Source: an uncultured Oscillibacter sp. (GTDB lineage Bacteria; Bacillota; Clostridia; Oscillospirales; Oscillospiraceae). Taken from it: a stretch of DNA of 11,770 bases. The stretch spans positions 1 through 11,770 of the forward strand of contig CAMNAE010000024.1 in NCBI GenBank assembly GCA_946530565.1, in the 5' to 3' direction. How positions within the stretch are numbered: the stretch's first letter is position 1; each line of letters begins with the position of its first letter. The position numbers and the translations under genes were made by a program. A model generated the notes under the pieces. It searched no databases and was not told the DNA's origin. It worked only from the letters and a program-made list of their open reading frames with translations. Positions 1-11,555 of the stretch are shown in pieces.

Positions 1-664
1 GCCGTCCTCTCTCACCCTCGCCTCCGCGCGGGCCCGGCAGCTGAATTCCTCGGCGGCGGTCGTGCGGGCGGCGGTGCCGTTCAGCACGACCGGCAGCGTT
101 GTGGCCGAAAAGCAGGCGGCGGCGCTTCTCGAGGAGACCAGAAATGCGGTCGGCGCTGAGGCACGGCTGCAGTTTTTAGAGGCGCTCTGGAGCCAGTACG
201 GCTCGACCGGCATGATTTTGGACGCCGCCCATCAGCCGACGGATCAGAGCTTTGCCTCCTGGTACGACGGCACCTGGCCGGATTCGACGCCCTGGTGCGC
301 CTGCTATCTTTCCTGGGCGCTCTATCGCGCGCGCGGCGGGATCGAGGGCACGCCGCTCAGGTTCGCGAGCATCAAAAACGGCATCGAGCTCTTGAGCCGG
401 GAGGACGGCGCCTTCGGACACTTCTACACGGGCTTTGAGACCGCGCGTTACGCATCTCCGGGGGATATCCTGTTCTTCGACTGGGAGGGCGACGGCGACC
501 CTGACCACGTCGGCGCGGTATTGACCCGCGGCAGCGATGTCGTCTACACGGTCGAGGGCAACAGTGCCCATGCGGTCGCACTGCGCGAGTACAAGCTCGA
601 CGACCCGCACATCTGCGGCCTCGGCACGATCCCCTGGCGCGCAGCCGGGGGATCCGGGGAATAA
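1..664 (+). CDS. CHAP-domain cell-wall hydrolase (5' partial)
   Basis: The reading frame is open from base 2 to the TAA at 662-664 with no upstream stop. GTG 62 has no ribosome binding site, so the true start is very likely outside the window. The C-terminal ~150 residues match a CHAP (NlpC/P60-superfamily) amidase or endopeptidase that cuts peptidoglycan peptides or the amide bond to the glycan. Counting from GTG 62, the Cys nucleophile is Cys79 in PWCACYLSWAL (codon at 296-298), the general base is His149 in DPDHVGAVL, and VEGNS (164-168) supplies the usual polar residue. The fold is read from these motifs; the substrate bond is not determined. The visible N-terminal part is helical and alanine-rich and could be a linker or the end of another domain. 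It precedes an AT-rich gap and an independent promoter, so it is probably not part of the following operon. Confidence 0.85.
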   Translation, partial: PSSLTLASARARQLNSSAAVVRAAVPFSTTGSVVAEKQAAALLEETRNAVGAEARLQFLEALWSQYGSTGMILDAAHQPTDQSFASWYDGTWPDSTPWCACYLSWALYRARGGIEGTPLRFASIKNGIELLSREDGAFGHFYTGFETARYASPGDILFFDWEGDGDPDHVGAVLTRGSDVVYTVEGNSAHAVALREYKLDDPHICGLGTIPWRAAGGSGE

Positions 665-742
665 AGGCCGCTGCGTGCAAACCGCCTGACCGGATCGGAA
701 AAGATCATAGCTTTATACGACAAAATTACATGGAATTGATGG

Positions 743-771
743 TTGACAGAATGCGTTCTATCGATTAAAAT
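743..771 (+). promoter_or_regulatory. Sigma-A promoter for the peptide/EPS operon
   Basis: A perfect -35 TTGACA (743-748) and a -10 TAAAAT (766-771) are separated by exactly 17 bases. This predicts transcription start near 778 and a leader of about 94 nt before the GTG at 872. It is the only convincing promoter before the terminator at 7364, so it probably serves the whole eight-gene operon. Confidence 0.8.
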
Positions 772-811
772 ATAAAAGTCATGAAAGACGATTTATGTTT
801 TATTCGATAGA
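757..811 (+). repeat. Spaced 8-bp inverted repeat over promoter and leader
   Basis: TCTATCGA (757-764, just upstream of the -10) and its exact reverse complement TCGATAGA (804-811, in the leader) are separated by 39 bases. It could be a pair of operator half-sites that allow looping, or chance in AT-rich DNA. Neither arm extends further. Confidence 0.35.
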
Positions 812-871
812 TCGCGATTATTGCTGTGCTTGCAGAAATTGCAGCATTGCGTGTTAAAGGAGGTTTGCGCC

Positions 872-1078
872 GTGCACAAAAAACCCTATGCCGCTCCCGG
901 CGCCCGGGTATTATACCTGACCCCGCAGGCATCGGTGCTTGGCACCTCCTTTGTCGGGCCTTTTCGCAGCAAGTGGTTCAGCCAAACGTTCGAGAAGACA
1001 GCCAGCGATGTGGTGACTCGCGGCACCTGGGGCAGCGGCGAATCCGTCTGGAAAGAAGACGGCTACAAGCTGCCGTGA
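872..1078 (+). CDS. Small peptide, candidate RiPP-like precursor
   Basis: This 68-residue ORF starts at GTG 872 behind AAAGGAGG (856-863) with an 8-base spacer, the strongest RBS in the region. That decides the start over an in-frame TTG at 821. It is the first gene after the promoter. It has no signal peptide, membrane segment or Cys. The N-terminus KKPYAAPGARVLYL resembles the Y-x-x-P leader motif of small precursor peptides recognised by PqqD/RRE-type proteins. The C-terminal half is rich in Ser, Thr and aromatic residues (KWFSQTFEKT, RGTWGSGESVW) and ends in DGYKLP. The next gene is an HPr-kinase-like protein and a PqqD-like protein lies 3.1 kb downstream, so a modified, possibly phosphorylated peptide is plausible. 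The function is not recognised from sequence alone; it could also be a leader or regulatory peptide. Confidence 0.65.
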   Translation: MHKKPYAAPGARVLYLTPQASVLGTSFVGPFRSKWFSQTFEKTASDVVTRGTWGSGESVWKEDGYKLP

Positions 1079-1094
1079 AGCAGTGCTTTGCTTC
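1077..1094 (+). other. Intercistronic 6-bp hairpin
   Basis: GAAGCA (1077-1082) pairs with TGCTTC (1089-1094) around a 6-base loop. It spans the peptide stop codon and ends three bases before ATG 1097. There is no T-tract, so it is not a terminator. It may stabilise the upstream message or reduce translation of the kinase relative to the peptide. Confidence 0.35.
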
Positions 1095-1096
1095 AA

Positions 1097-1876
1097 ATGC
1101 AAATCGCACTCATTGATATGATAACAGAAAAAACATACCGCCCGGGCAGAAAGCGTATGCGCATTCAGGTCGCGGGCATACAGGTGGATCTGTGCTGCTC
1201 CGGGCGCACAGCAGCTCAGGCGGAGGCTTACAGGGCCCCCGCCTCTTTTGATATGCCCGCGCAGCTCACGATCGACGTAACGGGAGAGGAGGTGCTCGCG
1301 ACCGACCCCTACATCGGCTCTGCCGATGAGGCCGAGTACCTCGGCTCCGGCGAATGCTTCGCCCGCGCGCTCCCGCATTTCGACGCGCTGATGCTCCACG
1401 CCTGCGCGGTCGATTACAGGGGCCGGGCGCTGTGTTTCTCTGCGCCTTCCGGCACAGGGAAGACGACGCATGCGCGGCTCTGGCAGGGCTTTTTCGGCGC
1501 TGAACTGATCAACGATGACAAGCCTGTGCTCCGGCGGCAAAGCGGCGTTTGGCGCTGCTTCGGCTCGCCCTGGTGCGGGAGCAGCGGCCGCGGAGAAAAT
1601 CGCAGCGCGCCGCTTGCGGCGATCTGTTTTATAGAGCGCGGCACCGAAAACCGCATCGAGCAGCTCACGCCGGCCGAGGCCTTTCCGCTCTTTATGAGCC
1701 AGACGGTCTACGCGCTGCCGCGGAGGGAGCTGGAGCTCTTCTTGCCGCTTGCGGATCGGCTTCTTCGCGAGGTGCCGCAGTATATCATCACCTGCCGCAT
1801 GGACGCGGCCGCTGCCTACTGCGCGCGCGACGTAATTTTCAAGTTAGGAGTACCCCATGAGAGAGACGATGCCTGA
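1097..1876 (+). CDS. HPr-kinase-like (HprK/PEPCK-fold) putative serine kinase
   Basis: About 259 residues from ATG 1097. No candidate start has a good RBS. ATG 1157 (MRIQVAGI) fits the family's usual N-terminus better, and TTG 1088 is unlikely. The core follows HPr kinase/phosphorylase in order: the conserved His (residue 101, LHACAVDYRG), the P-loop APSGTGKTT (116-124) and an Asp pair in INDDKPVL (138-145), equivalent to the ADD motif after the P-loop of HprK. At ~260 residues it is shorter than HprK (~310) and lacks its N-terminal domain. Relatives sit in peptide-modification clusters; the ones in paeninodin-type lasso clusters phosphorylate a Ser of the peptide. Placement directly after a small peptide gene and in an operon with a PqqD homologue supports that role here, but the substrate is inferred. 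Its 3' end overlaps the wzz-like gene by 20 bases. Confidence 0.8.
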   Translation: MQIALIDMITEKTYRPGRKRMRIQVAGIQVDLCCSGRTAAQAEAYRAPASFDMPAQLTIDVTGEEVLATDPYIGSADEAEYLGSGECFARALPHFDALMLHACAVDYRGRALCFSAPSGTGKTTHARLWQGFFGAELINDDKPVLRRQSGVWRCFGSPWCGSSGRGENRSAPLAAICFIERGTENRIEQLTPAEAFPLFMSQTVYALPRRELELFLPLADRLLREVPQYIITCRMDAAAAYCARDVIFKLGVPHERDDA

Positions 1877-2633
1877 TACCCCGATGGCTGAGCAGATCGA
1901 TCTATTCAAACTGCTGCAGGCCTATCTTGCGCATTGGAAAATGCTGATCTGCGCGCTTGTGATCGGCGCGGCGGTCGCCGGCGGCTGGACGTATATGATG
2001 GTGACGCCGCTCTACCGTGCGAACGTGACCGTCTACGTGAACAACATCAAGAGCAACCAGCAGATCGACTATATCAGCGCCGGCAACCTCGCGACCGCCC
2101 AGCAGCTCGTTGCGACCTATGTCAACATCATCAAGTCCGACACCGTGCTTGAAAAGGTCGTTCGCGAGGCAAATCTTGACTGCTCGGCCGAGCAGCTGCG
2201 GCGCATGATGACAGCCGCGCAGGTGGGGGAGACCGAGCTCTTCGATGTCTACATCACGCACCCGGATCCACAGATGGCGGCGCGGATCGCCAACGCGATC
2301 GCGACGGTCGCCCCGGGCGAGATCGAGGAGTTCGTTGAGGGCAGCTCAACGAAGATCATCGACTACGCCAAAGTGCCGGAGATCCGCTTCTCACCCTCTT
2401 ACCGCCGCAATGTGGCACTCGGAGGGCTCGTCGCGCTCATTGCGGTGCTCGGCGTGCTGACGCTCGGCTTTTTGCTCGACGTGCGCGTGCACGACGAACA
2501 GGACCTGTTGGAGCATTTCGACTACCCGGTCATCGGCCAGATCCCCTCATTTGAGCAGATCACGAGCGGAAAGGGAAAGGGCCGAGCCCAAACAGATCCC
2601 TACCACAGTGCCGACAAGGGAGGTGTCCTGTGA
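1857..2633 (+). CDS. Wzz/CpsC-family polysaccharide chain-length/export modulator
   Basis: A 258-residue membrane protein of the PCP (Wzz, CapA/CpsC) family. ATG 1857 is supported by AGGAG at 1846-1850 with a 6-base gap. Two transmembrane segments lie at about 29-49 and 186-207, flanking an outside domain that carries the family's 'P-x-Y-x-A' entry (TPLYRANVTVYV) and a pre-TM2 proline motif (IRFSPSYRRN). The cytoplasmic tail contains DYPVIGQIPSF, usual just after TM2. In Gram-positive loci this protein sets polymer length and activates the separate tyrosine kinase through its cytoplasmic tail, and the kinase gene follows here with a GTGA overlap. The last ~25 residues are hydrophilic and include a Tyr (249), a possible kinase contact or substrate. 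Confidence 0.9.
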   Translation: MRETMPDTPMAEQIDLFKLLQAYLAHWKMLICALVIGAAVAGGWTYMMVTPLYRANVTVYVNNIKSNQQIDYISAGNLATAQQLVATYVNIIKSDTVLEKVVREANLDCSAEQLRRMMTAAQVGETELFDVYITHPDPQMAARIANAIATVAPGEIEEFVEGSSTKIIDYAKVPEIRFSPSYRRNVALGGLVALIAVLGVLTLGFLLDVRVHDEQDLLEHFDYPVIGQIPSFEQITSGKGKGRAQTDPYHSADKGGVL

Positions 2634-3478
2634 AGCTGAAGCTGCCGCTGCCCCGGCTGAGGACCGGCAGGCGCGAAGAAAAAGACACGGGCCTCATTGA
2701 AAACGAGCGCCGTTTTCTTCTGAATGCAAAGAGCGATTTTTACATCCGCGAGGCCTATAAGGCCCTCAGAACGAATGTGAGCTTCTCGCTGACCGGCGAT
2801 GAGCCCTGCAAGGTCCTGATCGTTACCTCGGCTTTGAGCTCCGAGGGCAAAAGCATCACCTCGGTGAACCTCGCGGTCTCCTATGCACAGATGGGCAGAA
2901 GGGTGCTGCTGATCGACTGCGACCTCCGCCGCCCCAAGCTTGCGCGCCTGCTGCAGGTCAGGGCGAAGGTCGGGCTTACGAACGTACTCATGCGCCCTGA
3001 GCTTCTCAGTGAGGCGCTGCTCGACACTTACGCGCCGAATCTGCAGGTCCTGACAGCCGGCGCGGTCCCGCCGAACCCCTCGGAGCTCCTTGGCTCCGAG
3101 CGCATGACCCGGCTCATGGAGGCTTTGAAGACCCGCTACGAGCTCATCATCCTCGACACCTCGCCGGTGAACCTTGTGACCGACGCCTGCGTGCTCGTGC
3201 CGCAGACGAGCGGGGTGCTGCTCGTCGTGCGCGCAGAAAAGAGCGAGCGCGACGCGGTCGGCCACGCGGTCGAGCAGCTCGAGCACGCGCAGGCGAAGAT
3301 CCTGGGCTTCGTTTTAAACGGCGTAGCGATGGAAGCTACGCACTACGGCTACGGCCGCTACAAACGCTACGGCCGCTATAAGCGCTACGGCAGGTACGGC
3401 TATGGCGGCTACGGCTACGGCTATGGCTACGGCGCGCCCCCGGCGGCAGCCGACGCGGAAGCCCACGCTGAGCCATGA
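2630..3478 (+). CDS. CpsD/CapB-type bacterial tyrosine kinase (BY-kinase)
   Basis: 282 residues, starting at GTG 2630, which overlaps the previous stop (GTGA) behind AAGGGAGG. Motifs in order: oligomerisation motif EAYKALRTN (41-49; Lys replaces the first Arg of EX2RX2R), Walker A TSALSSEGKS (66-75), Walker A' LLIDCDLRRP (93-102) and Walker B IILDTSP (173-179). BY-kinases autophosphorylate a C-terminal Tyr cluster in trans and cycle with the CpsB phosphatase to control capsule or EPS assembly. Here the tail (239-269) is unusually regular: 12 tyrosines in about 31 residues, built from YGRYKR repeats followed by GYGYGYG, then an Ala/Pro-rich end. The neighbouring CpsC and CpsB homologues confirm the assignment. 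The Arg/Lys between tyrosines could also bind anionic polymer or nucleotide-sugar lipids, which is speculative. Confidence 0.92.
   Translation: MKLKLPLPRLRTGRREEKDTGLIENERRFLLNAKSDFYIREAYKALRTNVSFSLTGDEPCKVLIVTSALSSEGKSITSVNLAVSYAQMGRRVLLIDCDLRRPKLARLLQVRAKVGLTNVLMRPELLSEALLDTYAPNLQVLTAGAVPPNPSELLGSERMTRLMEALKTRYELIILDTSPVNLVTDACVLVPQTSGVLLVVRAEKSERDAVGHAVEQLEHAQAKILGFVLNGVAMEATHYGYGRYKRYGRYKRYGRYGYGGYGYGYGYGAPPAAADAEAHAEP
3350..3403 (+). repeat. 18-bp tandem repeat encoding YGRYKR units
   Basis: Three 18-base units (3350-3367, 3368-3385 and the diverged 3386-3403) encode Y-G-R-Y-K-R twice, then Y-G-R-Y-G-Y. They run into TAC-GGC / TAT-GGC repeats up to about 3433. Units in multiples of three can expand or contract by replication slippage without breaking the frame, which would change the number of phosphorylatable tyrosines. 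Confidence 0.8.
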
Positions 3479-4197
3479 AAGACTATACCGACCTGCACAC
3501 GCACATCCTGCCGGGCATCGACGACGGTGCGCGGGATCCGGACGAGAGCATCGCGCTGTTGAGGCAGCAGGCGGAGCAGGGCGTCAGGCGCGTTGCGCTG
3601 ACGCCGCATTTCTACCCCCGGCACGAGTCCGCAGCGCATTTTCTCTCGCGCCGTGCCAAAGCATATGACGTGCTGCGCCGCCGCATCGATGCGCTGCAGC
3701 CCGTTGAGCGCGACGCGCTGCCGGAGCTCCTGCTTGGCGCCGAGGTCGCCTGGGCGCCGGAGCTCACCGAGGAAACGCGGCTCGACGCGCTGCGCCTCGG
3801 CGGCAGCGGGCCGCTCCTGCTCGAGCTGCCCTTTGAGCGCTGGGGCACAGGCGTGCGCGCCAGCCTTTATGAGCTGGCGCAGGGTCTGGGCGGGTCTTTG
3901 CTCCTTGCGCATCTGGAGCGCTATCAAAAGCTGCAGAGCAAAGAGATCTTCGAAGAGGTGCTCTCGCTCGGCCTTGCGGTGCAGCTGAGCGCCGCGCCGC
4001 TCACGCACACCTTTGCCCGCGGCGCACTGATCAGGCTTTTAAAACGGCCCGGCGCCTGGCTGATCGCCTCCGACTGCCACCGCCCGAAGGAGCGCCCGGC
4101 TGATCTTGCCCGCGGCTTTGCTTACGCGGAGCGCTCGCTCGGCACTGCTGCCGCCGCGGCGCTGGAGGCGAGGGCGCGCGCGCTTTGGGAAATATGA
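3475..4197 (+). CDS. CpsB/Wzb-type PHP-family protein-tyrosine phosphatase
   Basis: 240 residues starting at ATG 3475, whose ATGA overlaps the kinase stop; there is little SD sequence, so translational coupling is likely. It is a metal-dependent PHP-fold phosphatase that removes phosphate from the BY-kinase tyrosine cluster. The metal ligands are present in the family order: DLHTHILPGIDDG (His8, His10), TPH (His45), GAEV (Glu90), LLAHLERY (His146) and SDCH (Asp200, His202). Length is normal for CpsB/YwqE (~240-255). It completes a CpsC-CpsD-CpsB set, so phosphotyrosine cycling of the kinase is the expected role, acting in the cytoplasm at the membrane-bound complex. Confidence 0.92.
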   Translation: MKDYTDLHTHILPGIDDGARDPDESIALLRQQAEQGVRRVALTPHFYPRHESAAHFLSRRAKAYDVLRRRIDALQPVERDALPELLLGAEVAWAPELTEETRLDALRLGGSGPLLLELPFERWGTGVRASLYELAQGLGGSLLLAHLERYQKLQSKEIFEEVLSLGLAVQLSAAPLTHTFARGALIRLLKRPGAWLIASDCHRPKERPADLARGFAYAERSLGTAAAAALEARARALWEI

Positions 4198-4213
4198 CGG
4201 AAGGGGAGATGAG

Positions 4214-4483
4214 ATGCGGCGAAACGAGGAGTATTTGCTCCGTGAGGCGGCCGGGCTCACGCTGATCCTGCCGGTCGGCGCGGCAGCAGCACGCTTAAAT
4301 GGTATGATCCAGGTGAATGAGACCGGCGCCTTTTTGTGGGAGCGGCTTGCATCACCGCAGACCCGTGAGAGTCTTGCTGCGGCGCTCACAGATGCTTACG
4401 AGGTGACGAGGGAGCAGGCGGCGGCGGACGTGGACCGGTTTTTATCCGCGCTTGCTTCCACCGAGGCGATCCTGGAGGACTGA
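4214..4483 (+). CDS. PqqD-family peptide-binding protein (RRE-like)
   Basis: 89 residues. ATG 4214 lies 5 bases after GGGGAG (4203-4208), and the longer open frame upstream from 4106 overlaps the phosphatase. The sequence matches the PqqD family: an N-terminal strand pair EEYLLREAAGLTLILPVG (5-22) with NGMIQVNETGAFLW (29-42) and a helical C-terminus with a VDRFLSAL segment. PqqD and its RRE relatives bind the leader of a ribosomally made peptide and present it to a modifying enzyme. No radical SAM enzyme or cyclase is in the window; the only candidates in the operon are the small peptide at 872 and the HPr-kinase-like protein at 1097. Proteins of this subtype also accompany HprK-like kinases in other clostridial clusters (family knowledge from memory). 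Partner assignment is inference. Confidence 0.85.
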   Translation: MRRNEEYLLREAAGLTLILPVGAAAARLNGMIQVNETGAFLWERLASPQTRESLAAALTDAYEVTREQAAADVDRFLSALASTEAILED

Positions 4484-4486
4484 GCC

Positions 4487-5389
4487 ATGAGTAGAAAACG
4501 GATCTTTGCCGCACTCGGCATCGTACTTGCGCTGCTGCTGGCTGTGGGCTTTGCCCTGTGGCGAAGGCAGAACATCAAGGCGCTCACAGACGCGGTGACG
4601 AAGGACTCTGCCGCAGTAGCCGCAGAGCTCGAGGAGGCGCTCGGCACGCTGGAAGCGACGCTCCCGGAGGCGGGCTTCTCGGCGCCGAGCATGGAGCAGA
4701 CCGAAGCCCTGCTCGAAGGATACGCAGACCCCGAGGCGATCAAGGCCGAACTCGGCTTGAGCGCACCGGCCGAAGATGCGATCGCAAGCGAGGCGGACGC
4801 CGCGCAGGCGCCGCCGAAAGAAAAGACACCCGCGGCATCGGGCGGCGCAGCCGGATCGGCCGACCTGCCCGTAACGCCCGAAGCCCCGGCGTCCGCGGAG
4901 CAAAGCGCGCCGGCTGAGAAGACACCCGCAGCATCGGGCGGCGCGGCCGCATCGGCCGACCCGGCCGAAACAGCCGAAGATCACGCGCCCGCGGAGCAAA
5001 GCGCGCCGGATAGCTCCGTGCAGCCCGCAGTCGATACGGACGCGCTTGCCGATGGGATCTATCACCGCTGCGTCGCGGAGCTCTACGCGCTCCAGGTCGA
5101 TGTGATGGCGGAGCTTGGGCGGATGAAGAAGGCGGCCTTAGACGAGTGGGGCGCACTGCCGGAGGAGAAGCGGACGAGCATCCGCAAGCAGCAGATCGGC
5201 ATGGCCGGGCTTCGAAAATGCTATGCCTACGAGGTCACGGTCGACGCCGAGGTGCATAAGATCCTGGACCGCGGCCGCGCGGACCTGACAGCCATCGGCG
5301 CGGATGATGATCGCATGGATATGCTCTGGACCTACTACGTGCGCGAAAAAGAGGCACAGAAAACGTATTACCTGCAGAAATATCTGTAA
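4487..5389 (+). CDS. Single-pass exported protein, Ala/Pro-rich duplicated linker, unknown domain
   Basis: 300 residues. ATG 4487 follows GGAGG (4474-4478) with an 8-base gap, three bases after the pqqD-like stop. One hydrophobic segment (about 6-24, preceded by SRKR) predicts a signal anchor with the rest outside. Residues 40-90 look helical. Residues 95-180 are a low-complexity Ala/Pro/Ser/Glu linker containing two copies of a 32-residue unit (112-143 and 144-175, each starting EKTPAASGGAA). The C-terminal ~115 residues (186-300) form a compact, charged, mainly helical domain with two Cys (195, 245) and an aromatic end (WTYYVREKEA, TYYLQKYL). I do not recognise the domain. The position between pqqD and an SLH protein in a surface-polymer operon suggests an envelope role. 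The linker could cross the wall. Confidence 0.75.
   Translation: MSRKRIFAALGIVLALLLAVGFALWRRQNIKALTDAVTKDSAAVAAELEEALGTLEATLPEAGFSAPSMEQTEALLEGYADPEAIKAELGLSAPAEDAIASEADAAQAPPKEKTPAASGGAAGSADLPVTPEAPASAEQSAPAEKTPAASGGAAASADPAETAEDHAPAEQSAPDSSVQPAVDTDALADGIYHRCVAELYALQVDVMAELGRMKKAALDEWGALPEEKRTSIRKQQIGMAGLRKCYAYEVTVDAEVHKILDRGRADLTAIGADDDRMDMLWTYYVREKEAQKTYYLQKYL
4820..5011 (+). repeat. Tandem 96-bp coding duplication
   Basis: Two adjacent 96-base units (4820-4915, 4916-5011) encode related 32-residue segments that begin EKTPAASGGAA and end EQSAPA / EQSAPD. The first 15 codons are nearly identical and the middle has diverged. This is consistent with an in-frame duplication that lengthened the linker. 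Confidence 0.75.
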
Positions 5390-7482: not shown

Positions 7483-9264
7483 ATGAACAGGATGAGAAAG
7501 ATCACAAACGGGCTGCTGGGCGCCGTTCTGGCGCTGGCGCTGCTTTTGCCGCTTGGCGGTGCGGTCGTGCCCGAGGCGCGGGCCGAGGAGGACACGGGGG
7601 CGAAGCTCCTTGCGATCACCTTTGACGACGGCCCCTCTCAGTATACCAACGAGCTGCTCGACGGGCTCAAGGCGCGCGGCGCGAAGGCGACGTTCTTCAT
7701 GTGCGGCGTGAACGGCGGCAACGGCACGGTCAAGCACCGCGCCGAGATGGAGCGCATGCTCGCTGAGGGCCACCAGCTCGCCAACCACACCTGGTCCCAC
7801 GCGTCTTTCGGGCGGCTGGGCGCGGCAAAGATCAAGTCCGAGGTCGCGGCGGTCGAGGAAGCGCTCTTTGACGTCGTCGGCGGGGCGTACATGGATCTCG
7901 TGCGCACGCCCGGCGGCGCGAACAACGCGACGATCCGCGCAAACGTCGGCCATCCGGTCATCACCTGGCGCCTCGACCCGATGGACTGGCGCGACCGGAA
8001 CGAGGATACGGTCTATAACCGCATCGTCGAGCGCGCAAAGGACGGCGACGTGATCCTGCTCCACGACCTGTATCTCACGAGCGTGCGCGGCGGCCTCCGC
8101 GCGATCGACACGCTCCAGCAGCAGGGCTACGAGTTCGTGACCGTCTCCGAGCTCTTCCGCCGCCGCGGCGTGTACCTTGAAAACGGCGTCTTTTACAACT
8201 CCGCTCCGAACAAGGGCATCAACCGCCCGGGCTACAGCGCGCCGAAGCTCTCGGTGAGCTACAACGCCGCGGGCGATACGCTCGTCTCGGTCACCGGCCT
8301 TGAGAGCTGGATGGATGTGCGCTACACGCTCGACGGCTCGGCCCCGACGCTCAGGAGCCCCAAGTACACCGGGCCGATCACCCTGAAAGAGACCGCGACG
8401 GTCAGTGCGGCGGGCTTTGACCGCTTCGCAACGCGCACGCCGGTCGCCTCTGAGGAGATCGCCGGCAACGTCTGCGCGCAGCCGGTGCTGACCTCCGCCG
8501 AGGGCGGCACCCTGACCTTTACGACCGCGACGCCCGGCGCTTCTGTCTACTACACGACCGACGGCTCGAACCCGGTGAGCAGCGGCGTTCCCGCCTCCGG
8601 CGCGATCGAGGCGGGCCTCATCACCCGCGTGATCCCCCGCGCCTCCGGCCGCATCGACAGCCCTGAGCTCACGGTCACCCGCGCCGCCGACGGCAGCTAC
8701 TTCACCGACGTGCCGATCGACCACCACGACTACCTGCCGATCTCCCGCGCCCATGAGGCGGGCTTCATGAACGGCGTAGCAGATTTCGTCTTCGCGCCCG
8801 GCGGCGCGACGACGCGCGCGCAGCTCGTGAGCATCCTCTACCGCATGGCAGGGGAGCCCGCCGTCGACCTTTCGGGACTGGAAGCGCGCTTTTCCGATGT
8901 GAAGGCCGGCGACTGGTGTGCAGCGGCCGTTGAATGGGCGGCCGCAAACGGCGTCGTGAACGGCGTGGACGGCAGGTTCCTGCCCACGGCCGGCTTAAAG
9001 CGCGAGCAGGCTGCCGCGATCCTCACACGTTACGCCGCCTCGCTCGGCCTCGATACCGCGTCGGGGGACCTTGGCGCGTATCCCGACGCGGACAAGGTGA
9101 GCGAGTACGCGCGTGACGCCTTCGCCTGGTGCCTCTCCGAGGGTCTGCTTGAGGCGCAGAGCGGCGCGCTCCGCCCGGCCGACATCGCCACGCGCGGCCA
9201 GATGGCGCGCATGGTCACGGCGCTCTCCGCCGCGGCGGACGCCGAGGGCGGCGAAAACGCATGA
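7483..9264 (+). CDS. Secreted polysaccharide deacetylase with CHB_HEX-like and SLH domains
   Basis: 593 residues from ATG 7483. ATG 7441 and 7492 are alternatives and the RBS is weak (GGAAGG, AGAGAA). A signal peptide (1-34, cleavage after EARA) precedes a NodB-type domain (about 40-225). Its motifs are TFDDGP (46-51), NHTWSH (101-106, metal His102/His106), RTPGG (141-145), DPMDW (165-169) and ILLHD with catalytic His194. The family removes N-acetyl groups from peptidoglycan or other amino-sugar polymers using a divalent metal. Two segments with Y-T-x-D-G-S-x-P (280-288 and 357-364) resemble CHB_HEX_C/Fn3-like modules that extend the catalytic domain. Three SLH repeats (about 407-582; e.g. 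GGATTRAQ, GLKREQ, DIATRGQ) fix it to the wall; the last two lack the usual TRAE. The substrate may be peptidoglycan or the locus polymer and cannot be told from sequence. Confidence 0.92.
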   Translation: MNRMRKITNGLLGAVLALALLLPLGGAVVPEARAEEDTGAKLLAITFDDGPSQYTNELLDGLKARGAKATFFMCGVNGGNGTVKHRAEMERMLAEGHQLANHTWSHASFGRLGAAKIKSEVAAVEEALFDVVGGAYMDLVRTPGGANNATIRANVGHPVITWRLDPMDWRDRNEDTVYNRIVERAKDGDVILLHDLYLTSVRGGLRAIDTLQQQGYEFVTVSELFRRRGVYLENGVFYNSAPNKGINRPGYSAPKLSVSYNAAGDTLVSVTGLESWMDVRYTLDGSAPTLRSPKYTGPITLKETATVSAAGFDRFATRTPVASEEIAGNVCAQPVLTSAEGGTLTFTTATPGASVYYTTDGSNPVSSGVPASGAIEAGLITRVIPRASGRIDSPELTVTRAADGSYFTDVPIDHHDYLPISRAHEAGFMNGVADFVFAPGGATTRAQLVSILYRMAGEPAVDLSGLEARFSDVKAGDWCAAAVEWAAANGVVNGVDGRFLPTAGLKREQAAAILTRYAASLGLDTASGDLGAYPDADKVSEYARDAFAWCLSEGLLEAQSGALRPADIATRGQMARMVTALSAAADAEGGENA

Positions 9265-10514
9265 GCCTCTTTTCACGTTCGACAGCAGAGGGCGCGGCAT
9301 CCCCGCGCCCTCTGGGGCTTTATATCCATATCCCGTTCTGCAGGGCGAAGTGCGCCTACTGCGATTTCTATTCGCTCAAGTGCGCCGAGGGTGAAATGGA
9401 CGCCTATGCCGCGGCGCTCACGCGGCAGCTGAAGGAATACGCGCCCTGGTGCAAGGGCTACGCGGTCGATACCGTCTACTTCGGCGGCGGCACGCCGAGC
9501 TATTTCGGCGCCGGGCGGCTGTCAGAGCTCCTCGGCGTGATCCGGCGGCACTATGCCGTCACAAAGGACGCCGAGATCACGTTTGAGGCGAACCCCGACA
9601 GCGCCCGCGACGTGAAGGACCTGAAGCGCCTGAAACGCGCCGGCTTCAACCGCATCTCGCTCGGCATGCAGTCCTCGGACGCGGCACTCTTAAAGGCGAT
9701 CGGGCGCATCCACAGTCCCGCGGAGACAGAGGAGGCCGTCGCCGCGGCGCGGCGGGCGGGCTTTTCAAACCTCTCGCTCGACCTCATCTACGGCCTGCCC
9801 GGTCAGAGCCGGGAGCAGTGGGCACAGGACCTTGCCGCAGCGCTCGCGCTGCAGCCGGAGCATCTTTCCTGCTACGGGCTCAAGCTGGAGCCCGGCACGC
9901 CCCTGTACGAACGGCGCGCGCTGCTCGACCTTCCGGGCGACGACGCGCAGGCCGACATGTATCTTGCCGCCGTGAAAACGCTCGGGGACGCCGGCTACGG
10001 GCAATATGAGATCTCGAATTTCGCAAAGCCCGGGCGCGAAAGCCGGCACAACCTGAAATACTGGCGGCTTGAGGAATATCTCGGCTTCGGCCCCGGTGCG
10101 CACTCCGACAGCGGCGGCGTGCGCTTCGCCTGGCCGCGGGATCTGCAGGGCTATATCGCCACCGCCGGCACGCCGGCGCTCCTCCCCTCGGAGCGCGACG
10201 AGATCCCGCCTGCCGACCGCGACAGCGAGTATCTGATGCTCGGCCTCAGGACCGCCGAGGGCATCTCGAAGCGCGTTTATGAGCGCCGCTTCTTCCGGCC
10301 CTTCGCCGTCCTCGAGCCCTTTTTAAGGCGCTGCGCCGCCGCCGGCTACGCCCTCGAGCCCGAGAGCGGGCACTGGCGGCTCACGCCGCAGGGCTTCCTC
10401 GTCTCGAACCAGATCATCGGCGAGCTGCTCGATGTGATGAACGCCGACAAGCTCCGCCGGGCGGAGGCGGACGAAAAACACGATTACAGAATGTTTATTC
10501 CGGAGGGAAAATAA
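9261..10514 (+). CDS. hemW: HemW-like radical SAM heme chaperone
   Basis: 417 residues starting at ATG 9261, whose ATGA overlaps the deacetylase stop. The [4Fe-4S] SAM-binding motif is CRAKCAYCDF (Cys27, Cys31, Cys34). The CxxxCxxC-x-F form, with Phe where HemN has a fourth Cys, together with the RHNLKYW motif, points to HemW, a heme-binding chaperone for respiratory enzymes, rather than coproporphyrinogen dehydrogenase. GGGTPS (75-80) is the SAM-contacting glycine motif, and a HemN_C-type winged-helix tail lies at about 340-400. The conserved part begins at LGLYIHIPFC (residue 18). The first ~17 residues are non-conserved-looking and are encoded over a 12-bp hairpin. No other in-frame ATG, GTG or TTG lies between 9264 and the conserved core. 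Translational coupling to a cell-wall enzyme is unusual for hemW. Confidence 0.9.
   Translation: MSLFSRSTAEGAASPRPLGLYIHIPFCRAKCAYCDFYSLKCAEGEMDAYAAALTRQLKEYAPWCKGYAVDTVYFGGGTPSYFGAGRLSELLGVIRRHYAVTKDAEITFEANPDSARDVKDLKRLKRAGFNRISLGMQSSDAALLKAIGRIHSPAETEEAVAAARRAGFSNLSLDLIYGLPGQSREQWAQDLAAALALQPEHLSCYGLKLEPGTPLYERRALLDLPGDDAQADMYLAAVKTLGDAGYGQYEISNFAKPGRESRHNLKYWRLEEYLGFGPGAHSDSGGVRFAWPRDLQGYIATAGTPALLPSERDEIPPADRDSEYLMLGLRTAEGISKRVYERRFFRPFAVLEPFLRRCAAAGYALEPESGHWRLTPQGFLVSNQIIGELLDVMNADKLRRAEADEKHDYRMFIPEGK
9286..9314 (+). other. 12-bp perfect hairpin in the 5' coding region of hemW
   Basis: The arm 9286-9297 pairs perfectly with 9303-9314 around a 5-base CATCC loop, 22 bases after the deacetylase stop. 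It has terminator-like strength and position, but the following bases are GGGCTTTATA, not a T-tract. It encodes residues 9-18 of hemW. It may attenuate transcription into hemW or protect the 3' end of the deacetylase message. Confidence 0.7.
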
Positions 10515-10517
10515 CAG

Positions 10518-11555
10518 ATGGGCGTCTATTCGACCGGCCAGTGGGTCGTACTCTTCTTCCTCTACGGCTTTCTCGGCTGGATCTGGGAGTGCTGCTGGGT
10601 CTCGGCCCATGAAAAGCGCTGGGTGAACCGCGGCTTCCTGCACGGGCCGTTTCTGCCGATCTACGCCTTCGGCGCGATCATCATCCTCTTCGTCACGCTG
10701 CCGGTGCAGGGGAGCTATCCCCTCATGTTCGTATTTGCGATGGTCAGCGCGACGGCGCTCGAGCTTGTGACCGGCTGGGGCATGGAGCGCCTCTTCCACA
10801 TGCGCTACTGGGACTACTCCGACCGGCCGTTTCAGCTCGGCGGGTACATCTGCCTGCGCTCCTCGCTCGCCTGGGGCGTACTCGGGATCCTGGTCGTCAA
10901 GGTCATCCACCAGCCGGTCGCGGCATTTTTGGCAGAGATTCCGGCGGTCGCGATCGACCCGCTCGGCCATGCGCTCGTGGCGGCCCTCGCGGTGGATACG
11001 ACCCTTTCTGCCCGCGCTGCCTTCGACCTCAGGGATACGCTCGAGCGATTGAGCGCCGAGAATGAGGACATCCGGCGGCTCCTCAGGCGCGCGGAGATCG
11101 CCCAGACCTTCGCTGAAGACGACCTGCGGCGTTTCCGTGCGCGCATGAACGGGAGCCGGGAGGCCTGGGAGGCGCGCGCAAAGGCCTTGCGCGGCAGCGG
11201 CGCGCAGCGGGCCGCCGCGATGCTCGAGAGCTACCGGGCCATGAACCGGGAGCTGCTCGACACGCTCGAGACGATCGCGGACTCGGTCTCCGGGGCGCTG
11301 CCGCATCCGGCGCAGCTCACGCCTGACGACCACAGCTTCGTTTCCGAGCTCCGCCGCGCGCGCATGGCGGCAAAACAGGGCGTCGCGCTGCGCGCGGAGG
11401 CCTATTCCGGCATGCTGCGGCAGCTGCGCGGCAACCCCGGCGCGGTGAGCCGCATGGCCGAGGCGATGAAGCTTTTAAAGACGATGGAGCGCGAGAGCCG
11501 CGGGAAAAAACCGACGGAAGCGGAGAAAAATCACGACAATTCGGCGCAGCTTTAG
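10518..11555 (+). CDS. CmpB-family (DUF1113) putative ABC transporter permease with helical tail
   Basis: 345 residues; ATG 10518 follows GGAGGG (10502-10507), three bases after the hemW stop. The first ~165 residues are a multi-pass membrane domain with segments near 8-28, 46-62, 68-86, 113-131 and 148-165. They carry the family motifs NRGFLHGPFLPIYAFGA (37-53), GWGMERLFHMRYWDYSD (86-102) and ICLRSSLAWG (111-120). The family (PF06541, common in Firmicutes) is annotated as an ABC permease by similarity, but its transport role is not established. Residues 166-345 form a charged, Arg/Glu-rich, probably cytoplasmic helical region with coiled-coil character, ending in a Lys-rich tail. I recognise no domain in this tail. 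Co-transcription with hemW and the deacetylase is likely because the gaps are 3 bases or overlaps. Confidence 0.85.
   Translation: MGVYSTGQWVVLFFLYGFLGWIWECCWVSAHEKRWVNRGFLHGPFLPIYAFGAIIILFVTLPVQGSYPLMFVFAMVSATALELVTGWGMERLFHMRYWDYSDRPFQLGGYICLRSSLAWGVLGILVVKVIHQPVAAFLAEIPAVAIDPLGHALVAALAVDTTLSARAAFDLRDTLERLSAENEDIRRLLRRAEIAQTFAEDDLRRFRARMNGSREAWEARAKALRGSGAQRAAAMLESYRAMNRELLDTLETIADSVSGALPHPAQLTPDDHSFVSELRRARMAAKQGVALRAEAYSGMLRQLRGNPGAVSRMAEAMKLLKTMERESRGKKPTEAEKNHDNSAQL

Follow-up and report, generated by a model that had tools for sequence, protein, structure and literature searches.

A probable reduced relative of LPP peptide clusters, interleaved with a CpsCDB module in an uncultured Oscillibacter sp.

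RESULTS

Organization of the locus

The 11,770-base stretch analysed here (contig CAMNAE010000024.1 of an uncultured Oscillibacter sp.; the window) carries at positions 872 to 4483 a packed run of six genes on one strand, which encode a small peptide, an HprK-like kinase, CpsC, CpsD, CpsB and a PqqD-family protein. The last is a discrete recognition element (RRE) of the kind found with ribosomally synthesized and posttranslationally modified peptides (RiPPs). The window is the entire contig, with ends at 1 and 11770, and the metagenome-assembled genome (MAG) to which it belongs is 69% complete. The features are as follows.

743 to 771, plus strand: sigma-70-like promoter match TTGACA-17-TAAAAT upstream of the peptide gene; 11 of 12 positions match
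857 to 863, plus strand: ribosome-binding site AAGGAGG of the peptide gene, from sequence
872 to 1078, plus strand: predicted precursor peptide, 68 amino acids, divergent within its family of 93 proteins and with same-genus homologs
1097 to 1876, plus strand: predicted HprK-like (LppK-like) kinase, from a weak sequence match, fold and conserved residues
1857 to 2633, plus strand: CpsC-like Wzz chain-length/kinase-adaptor protein, from family models
2630 to 3478, plus strand: CpsD-like BY-type tyrosine kinase with a Tyr-rich tail, from a family model
3475 to 4197, plus strand: CpsB-like PHP phosphotyrosine phosphatase, from a family model
4214 to 4483, plus strand: PqqD-family discrete RRE (LppB/lasso B1-like), from a family model, sequence and fold
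4487 to 5389, plus strand: membrane-anchored protein, by alignment a homolog of the gene behind the peptidase and exporter genes of the related locus L104
5430 to 7346, plus strand: surface protein with SLH domains, from a domain match; L104 has an SLH protein in the corresponding position
7483 to 9264, plus strand: polysaccharide deacetylase with SLH domains, from family models

An earlier, sequence-only reading of this DNA had described a single run headed by a peptide gene with a strong ribosome-binding site, with near-zero spacing and start/stop overlaps. The family matches and the measured gaps confirm this description: 18 nt separate the peptide gene from hprk, hprk/cpsC, cpsC/cpsD and cpsD/cpsB overlap (gaps of -20, -4 and -4 nt), and 16 and 3 nt separate cpsB from pqqD and pqqD from the next gene. 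The same reading had seen no maturase, cyclase or exporter, which holds for 872 to 4483, where no peptidase was seen either. About 0.9 promoter matches of this quality are expected by chance in the scanned region; thus, it is position that supports the match at 743 to 771.

The precursor peptide and its family

The peptide open reading frame (ORF) begins with GTG, 8 nt behind AAGGAGG, and its codon-position GC content (0.56/0.53/0.74) is like that of its neighbours, the upstream gap giving 0.35/0.38/0.51. Residues 6 to 9 (Tyr6-Ala-Ala-Pro9; 887 to 898) form the YxxP leader motif by which precursors of the linear polyphosphorylated peptide (LPP) class of RiPPs are recognized, and Glu-Asp-Gly stands at residues 62 to 64. 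At L104, a locus of the same genus (L, G and C numbers denote loci, genomes and contigs), a peptide encoded directly before hprk aligns with the window peptide over most of its length (score 58, against a shuffled mean of 23 and with none of 2000 shuffles as high).

A single-sequence search of 5.8 billion proteins returned a near-identical copy only, and a search of 200 genomes gave weak matches in six others, which were not used. Profile A4, built from the window, L104 and L203 peptides, identified 93 proteins of 65 to 85 amino acids among 103 candidates, including a near copy of the window peptide; the named relatives belong to Oscillibacter sp. and Oscillospiraceae. L203 and L208 were weak matches to a nine-peptide profile (E values of 0.0073 and 0.023; 13 genomes) and were accepted because of their sequences. 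In the alignment of these 93 proteins with the window and L208 peptides, Tyr6, Pro9, Ala11 and Pro18 are invariant (95/95), and Trp35 (94) and Glu62, Asp63 and Gly64 (91, 93 and 94) are nearly so. When the family model was built without the window peptide and its near copy, the window peptide still ranked first among the nontraining frames (E value of 0.033; 23,079 frames from overlapping loci); the frames ranked below it were mostly YxxP peptides upstream of hprk, and the best reversed control had an E value of 9.3. Because of the L104 alignment, the profile A4 family and this ranking, the window peptide is, as judged from its sequence, a genuine but divergent family member. Many of the proteins (P0002 to P0093) are near-identical variants in which the middle varies and the Glu-Asp-Gly end is kept, and 85 of the 93 have an xAS motif after residue 30. 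No relative of the family was found in viral contigs.

A small ORF with a ribosome-binding site, a basic start and [YF]xxP precedes 18 of 49 hprk genes at a distance of up to 450 nt, compared with 8 of 355 control genes, and one of those eight is itself a YxxP-type peptide. The general clostridial leader matrix, derived from 38 peptides, comprises Tyr, Pro, Phe at position 11, acidic residues at 14 and 15 and Ile at 17. Three loci (L129, L141 and L172) encode two YxxP peptides each, with similar leaders within a locus.

The kinase and the RRE protein

The product of 1097 to 1876 is predicted to be an HprK-like kinase, an assignment that is weak by sequence (TIGR04352, E value of 0.0007, under the cut-off; no Pfam match) and supported by fold. 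The solved folds nearest to its model (pLDDT 89) are those of HprK/P and PEPCK (best E value of 3.2e-6), with TM scores of at most 0.56 by query length among the matches listed. The P-loop lies at residues 119 to 124, NDD at 139 to 141 and a His at 101; the P-loop residues G, G, K and T, the NDD motif and His101 are invariant in all 16 aligned kinases. By fold and residues, the weak sequence match notwithstanding, the window thus has the HprK-like kinase that characterizes LPP clusters. Translation may start at TTG 1088 or ATG 1097, neither of which is preceded by a visible ribosome-binding site.

The RRE protein matches PF05402 with 63.5 bits (cut-off of 23.4), and four sequence matches in the PDB fall below an E value of 0.001: TbiB1, TfuB1, PbaB1 and LppB. 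Its model (pLDDT 95.5) is closest to TbiB1 and TfuB1 (TM about 0.7). Asn35, Tyr62, Asp72 and Phe76 correspond to Asn33, Tyr60, Asp70 and Phe74 of LppB, so that the window encodes a discrete RRE with the Tyr/Pro-binding residues of LPP systems. Over 15 RRE sequences, Asn is found in all 15, Tyr in 11 (Phe in 4) and Asp in 13; in PbaB1, with its preference for Trp leaders, a Gln stands opposite this Asp (read from the alignment).

The second PqqD match of the window genome, on contig C223 (L103, G000:C223), adjoins a Cys-rich small ORF (590 to 780, minus strand), followed on the plus strand by a gene that looks primase-like by eye. The small ORF resembles SCIFF, and this second PqqD protein was rejected as part of the system.

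A recurring clostridial cassette

LPP RiPP clusters (lppAKBSDN) were described by Popov et al. in May 2026 (PMC13381572, here and below as consulted in part). According to those parts of the paper, the RRE binds a YxxP leader, the HprK protein polyphosphorylates core Ser3, a SipW-like peptidase cuts the leader and no cyclase is involved; the clusters often lie in capsule loci, and their role is given as unknown.

Of 200 genomes searched from the family, 39 encode an HprK homolog, as do 7 of 86 from the genus, each set including the window's own genome. These searches yielded 66 hprk matches, of which 49, the window included, were mapped in detail; the other 17 were the lowest-ranked of the family search. 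Together with 80 loci on named GTDB contigs, this gave 129 loci, or 126 after removal of 3 duplicates. The 80 came from an HprK alignment search of the genome contigs, in which a single-sequence query had found nothing. Since they were the best of at least 592 loci from that search, the proportions reported here describe the nearer relatives.

On the same strand and within 10 kb of hprk, the 126 loci contain pqqD (99), a small S24/S26 peptidase-like protein (85), an ABC exporter (60) and NTP_transf_5 (43); 50 have pqqD, the S26 protein and the exporter together, and 28 have all four. A clostridial cassette of YxxP-leader peptide, HprK, PqqD, S26-like peptidase, ABC exporter and NTP transferase therefore recurs, and its gene set is that of lppK-B-S-D-N. 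Two loci of the window's genus, L096 and L104, keep the S26-like peptidase and the exporter behind kinase-cpsCDB-pqqD; for the peptidases of both, the best matches are to archaeal-type signal peptidase models, with a further match to SipW in the case of L096, all under the cut-offs.

These results bear out the part of the sequence-only reading that took the peptide, HprK and PqqD for a single system, as they look like one of RiPP type, and the tie to the Cps module that it proposed recurs as well. It had also suggested a minimal or undescribed type. The trio is not undescribed, because the cassette matches the LPP family, and the idea that the missing exporter and maturase are a property of the type is not supported, because the relatives carry a peptidase and an exporter.

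The same comparison bears on the possibility of a lasso peptide cluster with a remote cyclase, which the YxxP leader and the B1-like RRE would fit and which agrees with the tailoring of lasso peptides by kinases of the HprK kind (PMC9266682, in the parts consulted). However, in the 45 genomes with hprk, no transglut_core3 match shares a contig with hprk at a distance of 20 kb or less, and Asn_synthase gave only two short partial matches within 15 kb (G145 and G004); cyclase and B2 matches on other contigs cannot be placed relative to hprk. As no full cyclase was found near hprk in these genomes, the lasso reading was rejected, and we leave it almost no probability.

A radical SAM (SPASM-like) protein is encoded in 16 of the 126 loci, 12 of which have an identifiable YxxP peptide. 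In ten of them (L045, L050, L067, L073, L076, L078, L079, L097, L106 and L107), the peptides, viewed by eye, have Cys-containing cores and end in Ser, the residue targeted by the kinase in lasso clusters (PMC9266682, in part); the peptides of L057 and L182 have another last residue. These loci apparently form a second class that shares the leader and the kinase.

Interleaving with CpsCDB

All three proteins of the CpsB-CpsC-CpsD phosphotyrosine module, also known as Wzd/Wze/Wzh, are present: a Wzz adaptor (CpsC; PF02706, 54.5 bits, cut-off of 25.5; TIGR01006, E value of 1.3e-38, under the cut-off), a P-loop kinase with a Tyr-rich tail (CpsD; TIGR01007, 217 bits, cut-off of 108; 12 Tyr in the last 48 residues) and a PHP phosphatase (CpsB; PF19567, 109 bits, cut-off of 27). 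The module likely controls a surface polymer.

The order hprk, cpsCDB, pqqD occurs in three genomes of the genus. In G235 (L096), it reads hprk, DUF5658 protein, cpsC, cpsD, cpsB, pqqD, S26, ABC; in G270 (L104), it reads peptide, hprk, Polysacc_synt_2 protein, cpsCDB, pqqD, S26, ABC, membrane protein, SLH protein. In the window, the peptide gene is followed by hprk, cpsCDB, pqqD and the genes of a membrane protein and an SLH protein. Its CpsC, CpsD and CpsB are 66, 70 and 47% identical to those of L104. The membrane proteins of the two loci are homologous (alignment score of 173, against a maximum of 75 in 300 shuffles), so that the window lacks S26 and ABC genes exactly between pqqD and the next gene that it has in common with L104.

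This precise absence, together with the divergence of the window peptide, would suit a decaying locus, in which peptide, kinase and RRE survive as leftovers of a system that has lost its peptidase, exporter and transferase, or in which the bound peptide has kept only an intracellular role, the regulation of the kinase. Other observations speak against decay: the P-loop, the NDD motif and the four RRE contact residues are intact, the peptide keeps its Tyr, Pro, Glu-Asp-Gly and strong ribosome-binding site, and near-identical copies exist in other assemblies (a cluster of 4 sequences on 3 contigs, the longest of 3289 bases). We judge decay quite improbable.

Of the 126 loci, 11, the window among them, have a same-strand cpsB gene no more than 10 kb from hprk, and in eight of the 11 the order differs (L040, L043, L052, L105, L114, L127, L144 and L159). 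The LPP-like trio and CpsCDB could be separate systems that share a promoter, cpsCDB having landed between hprk and pqqD by chance and both sets being coexpressed as surface genes. Three observations favour such independence: LPP and lasso clusters already sit in polysaccharide loci (PMC13381572, in part), 115 of the 126 hprk loci lack a same-strand cpsB within 10 kb (many of the contigs being short), and the window genome has a second CpsB (C66). Nevertheless, cpsCDB also accompanies the cassette, differently ordered, in other genera (L040, L043 and L052) and in Clostridia MAGs (L114, L127 and L159), and the proximity of hprk and cpsB is about ten times the expectation: by coordinates, 8 of 66 hprk genes lie within 10 kb of cpsB, compared with 0.83 expected (p of 1.7e-6 for uniform placement; the genomes are related). 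Independence of the two systems is therefore possible but, in our judgement, doubtful.

Links to the cell surface

Same-strand ORFs of at least 700 amino acids end within 700 nt upstream of 25 of 42 YxxP peptides, compared with 40 of 336 control genes taken from the same loci (odds ratio of 10.9). The 42 are the 38 matrix peptides less 3 judged to be chance matches plus 7 added; the two of L172 share one upstream ORF. YxxP genes often stand a few tens of nucleotides behind a very long ORF (L040, L042, L043, L065, L104, L105, L116 and others). Several of these long ORFs begin with a visible signal peptide, and that of L108 does not look secreted. The association points to the cell surface. In the window, the upstream frame encodes a CHAP domain (220 amino acids, 210 nt away) and runs off the contig edge.

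Downstream, the deacetylase gene at 7483 to 9264 is a possible further member of the run. A same-strand SLH ORF lies within 10 kb of hprk in 17 of the 129 loci. Positions 9261 to 11555 encode a HemW-like radical SAM protein (CxxxCxxC, by eye) and a membrane protein.

DISCUSSION

We consider it fairly probable that 872 to 4483 is a reduced relative, in Clostridia, of the LPP cassette, in which the RRE would hold the leader and the kinase would phosphorylate the core, and that it is made together with a CpsCDB switch that probably controls a surface polymer. It can be envisioned that PqqD binds leader residues Tyr6 and Pro9 in a cleft with Asp72, Asn35, Phe76 and Tyr62 and that HprK then adds one or more phosphates to a core Ser, for which Ser45 in TASD and Ser26 are candidates. 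Because the window locus does not have a leader peptidase of its own, cleavage of the leader would fall to an S26 enzyme whose gene lies elsewhere or to a general peptidase. The peptide would then be exported and act at a surface built under the control of CpsCDB. The phospho-Ser could accept a sugar, a step with a precedent in pseudomycoidin, where the nucleotidyltransferase-like protein PsmN is reported to add hexoses to phospho-Ser (PMC9266682, in part), and the tie to CpsCDB would let the polymer and the peptide be made, and perhaps joined, together.

Several findings weigh against this interpretation. LppS, the SipW-like leader peptidase, and LppD, the MsbA-like exporter, are absent from the window locus and present in L096 and L104; an LppS-type query of the 69% complete MAG, run without a positive control, found nothing, and the best LppD-type match elsewhere in the genome is 34% identical. 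No match to the NTP transferase LppN was found in the window or in the L096 and L104 stretches. The window peptide departs from the LPP leader consensus YxxPxVLxHQxIxFETxxS (PMC13381572, in part), is a poor match to the general clostridial leader matrix (score of -1.3, rank 602 of 2200) and scores weakly (E value of 0.033) when the family model is trained on the other members. In the window RRE, the eight further pocket positions compared with LppB all differ (for example V35/T37, C39/L41, V63/T65 and V67/A69; mostly small or hydrophobic residues), and the Phe contact is kept in just 8 of the 15 RRE sequences. The 115 loci without a nearby cpsB belong here too, as does the fact that four of the eight cpsB-near hprk genes are from the window's own genus. 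Finally, G235, of the same genus, has two homologous peptides on contigs other than the one with hprk and pqqD; therefore, a precursor gene can lie apart from the kinase/RRE pair. The conservation and pairing of the peptide, which the sequence-only reading had proposed as checks, thus gave a mixed picture: a homolog holds the same place in L104, and those of G235 lie apart.

A bolder proposal is that the peptide is built into the cell surface, its Ser phosphate joining a polymer or sugar under CpsCDB control, and that the precursors accompany the giant secreted proteins behind whose genes they are often encoded. We regard this as unlikely; if true, it would be a ribosomal phosphopeptide-polysaccharide conjugate with the polymer switch in the same operon.

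The interleaving of kinase, cpsCDB and RRE is a new arrangement of a known kind of trio. An LPP-type cassette interleaved with CpsBCD was not found described in the literature searched (titles and abstract starts, with few subscription papers), and the terms Clostridi, Oscillo, CpsB, tyrosine kinase, S-layer and surface protein do not occur in the main text of the LPP paper (PMC13381572). A switch placed between an LPP-type kinase and its RRE turns the observation that such clusters lie near capsule genes into a concrete question, whether peptide and polymer depend on each other. The interleaved locus is thus a testable hint at the purpose of LPPs, a role that their description, in the part consulted, leaves as unknown (PMC13381572).

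Of the known systems, LPP clusters are the closest. As described in the consulted parts of PMC13381572, they share with the window the YxxP leader, the HprK kinase and a discrete RRE with Asn, Tyr, Asp and Phe contacts; they share with its relatives the S26-like peptidase, the ABC exporter and the NTP transferase in the same order; and in both, a cyclase is not nearby and polymer genes surround the locus. In contrast to those clusters, the window belongs to Clostridia, has cpsCDB between kinase and RRE, does not have S, D and N, and has another leader consensus, other RRE pocket residues and a precursor family of about 70 residues conserved from end to end. Since S, D and N were not found at the window locus, we class it as LPP-like in its working and not as a member of the LPP clusters.

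Lasso clusters of the paeninodin and pseudomycoidin type likewise have an HprK kinase, a discrete B1 RRE and, as in the window's relatives, an NTP transferase; unlike them, the window has neither a cyclase nor a B2 peptidase nearby, and where its RRE contacts the leader Tyr or Trp, it has Asp in place of Gln. The CpsBCD module agrees with the window in all three proteins, their domains and the Tyr-rich tail; a glycosyltransferase was not noticed on the window contig, and, unlike that module, the one described here is flanked on both sides by genes of a peptide system.

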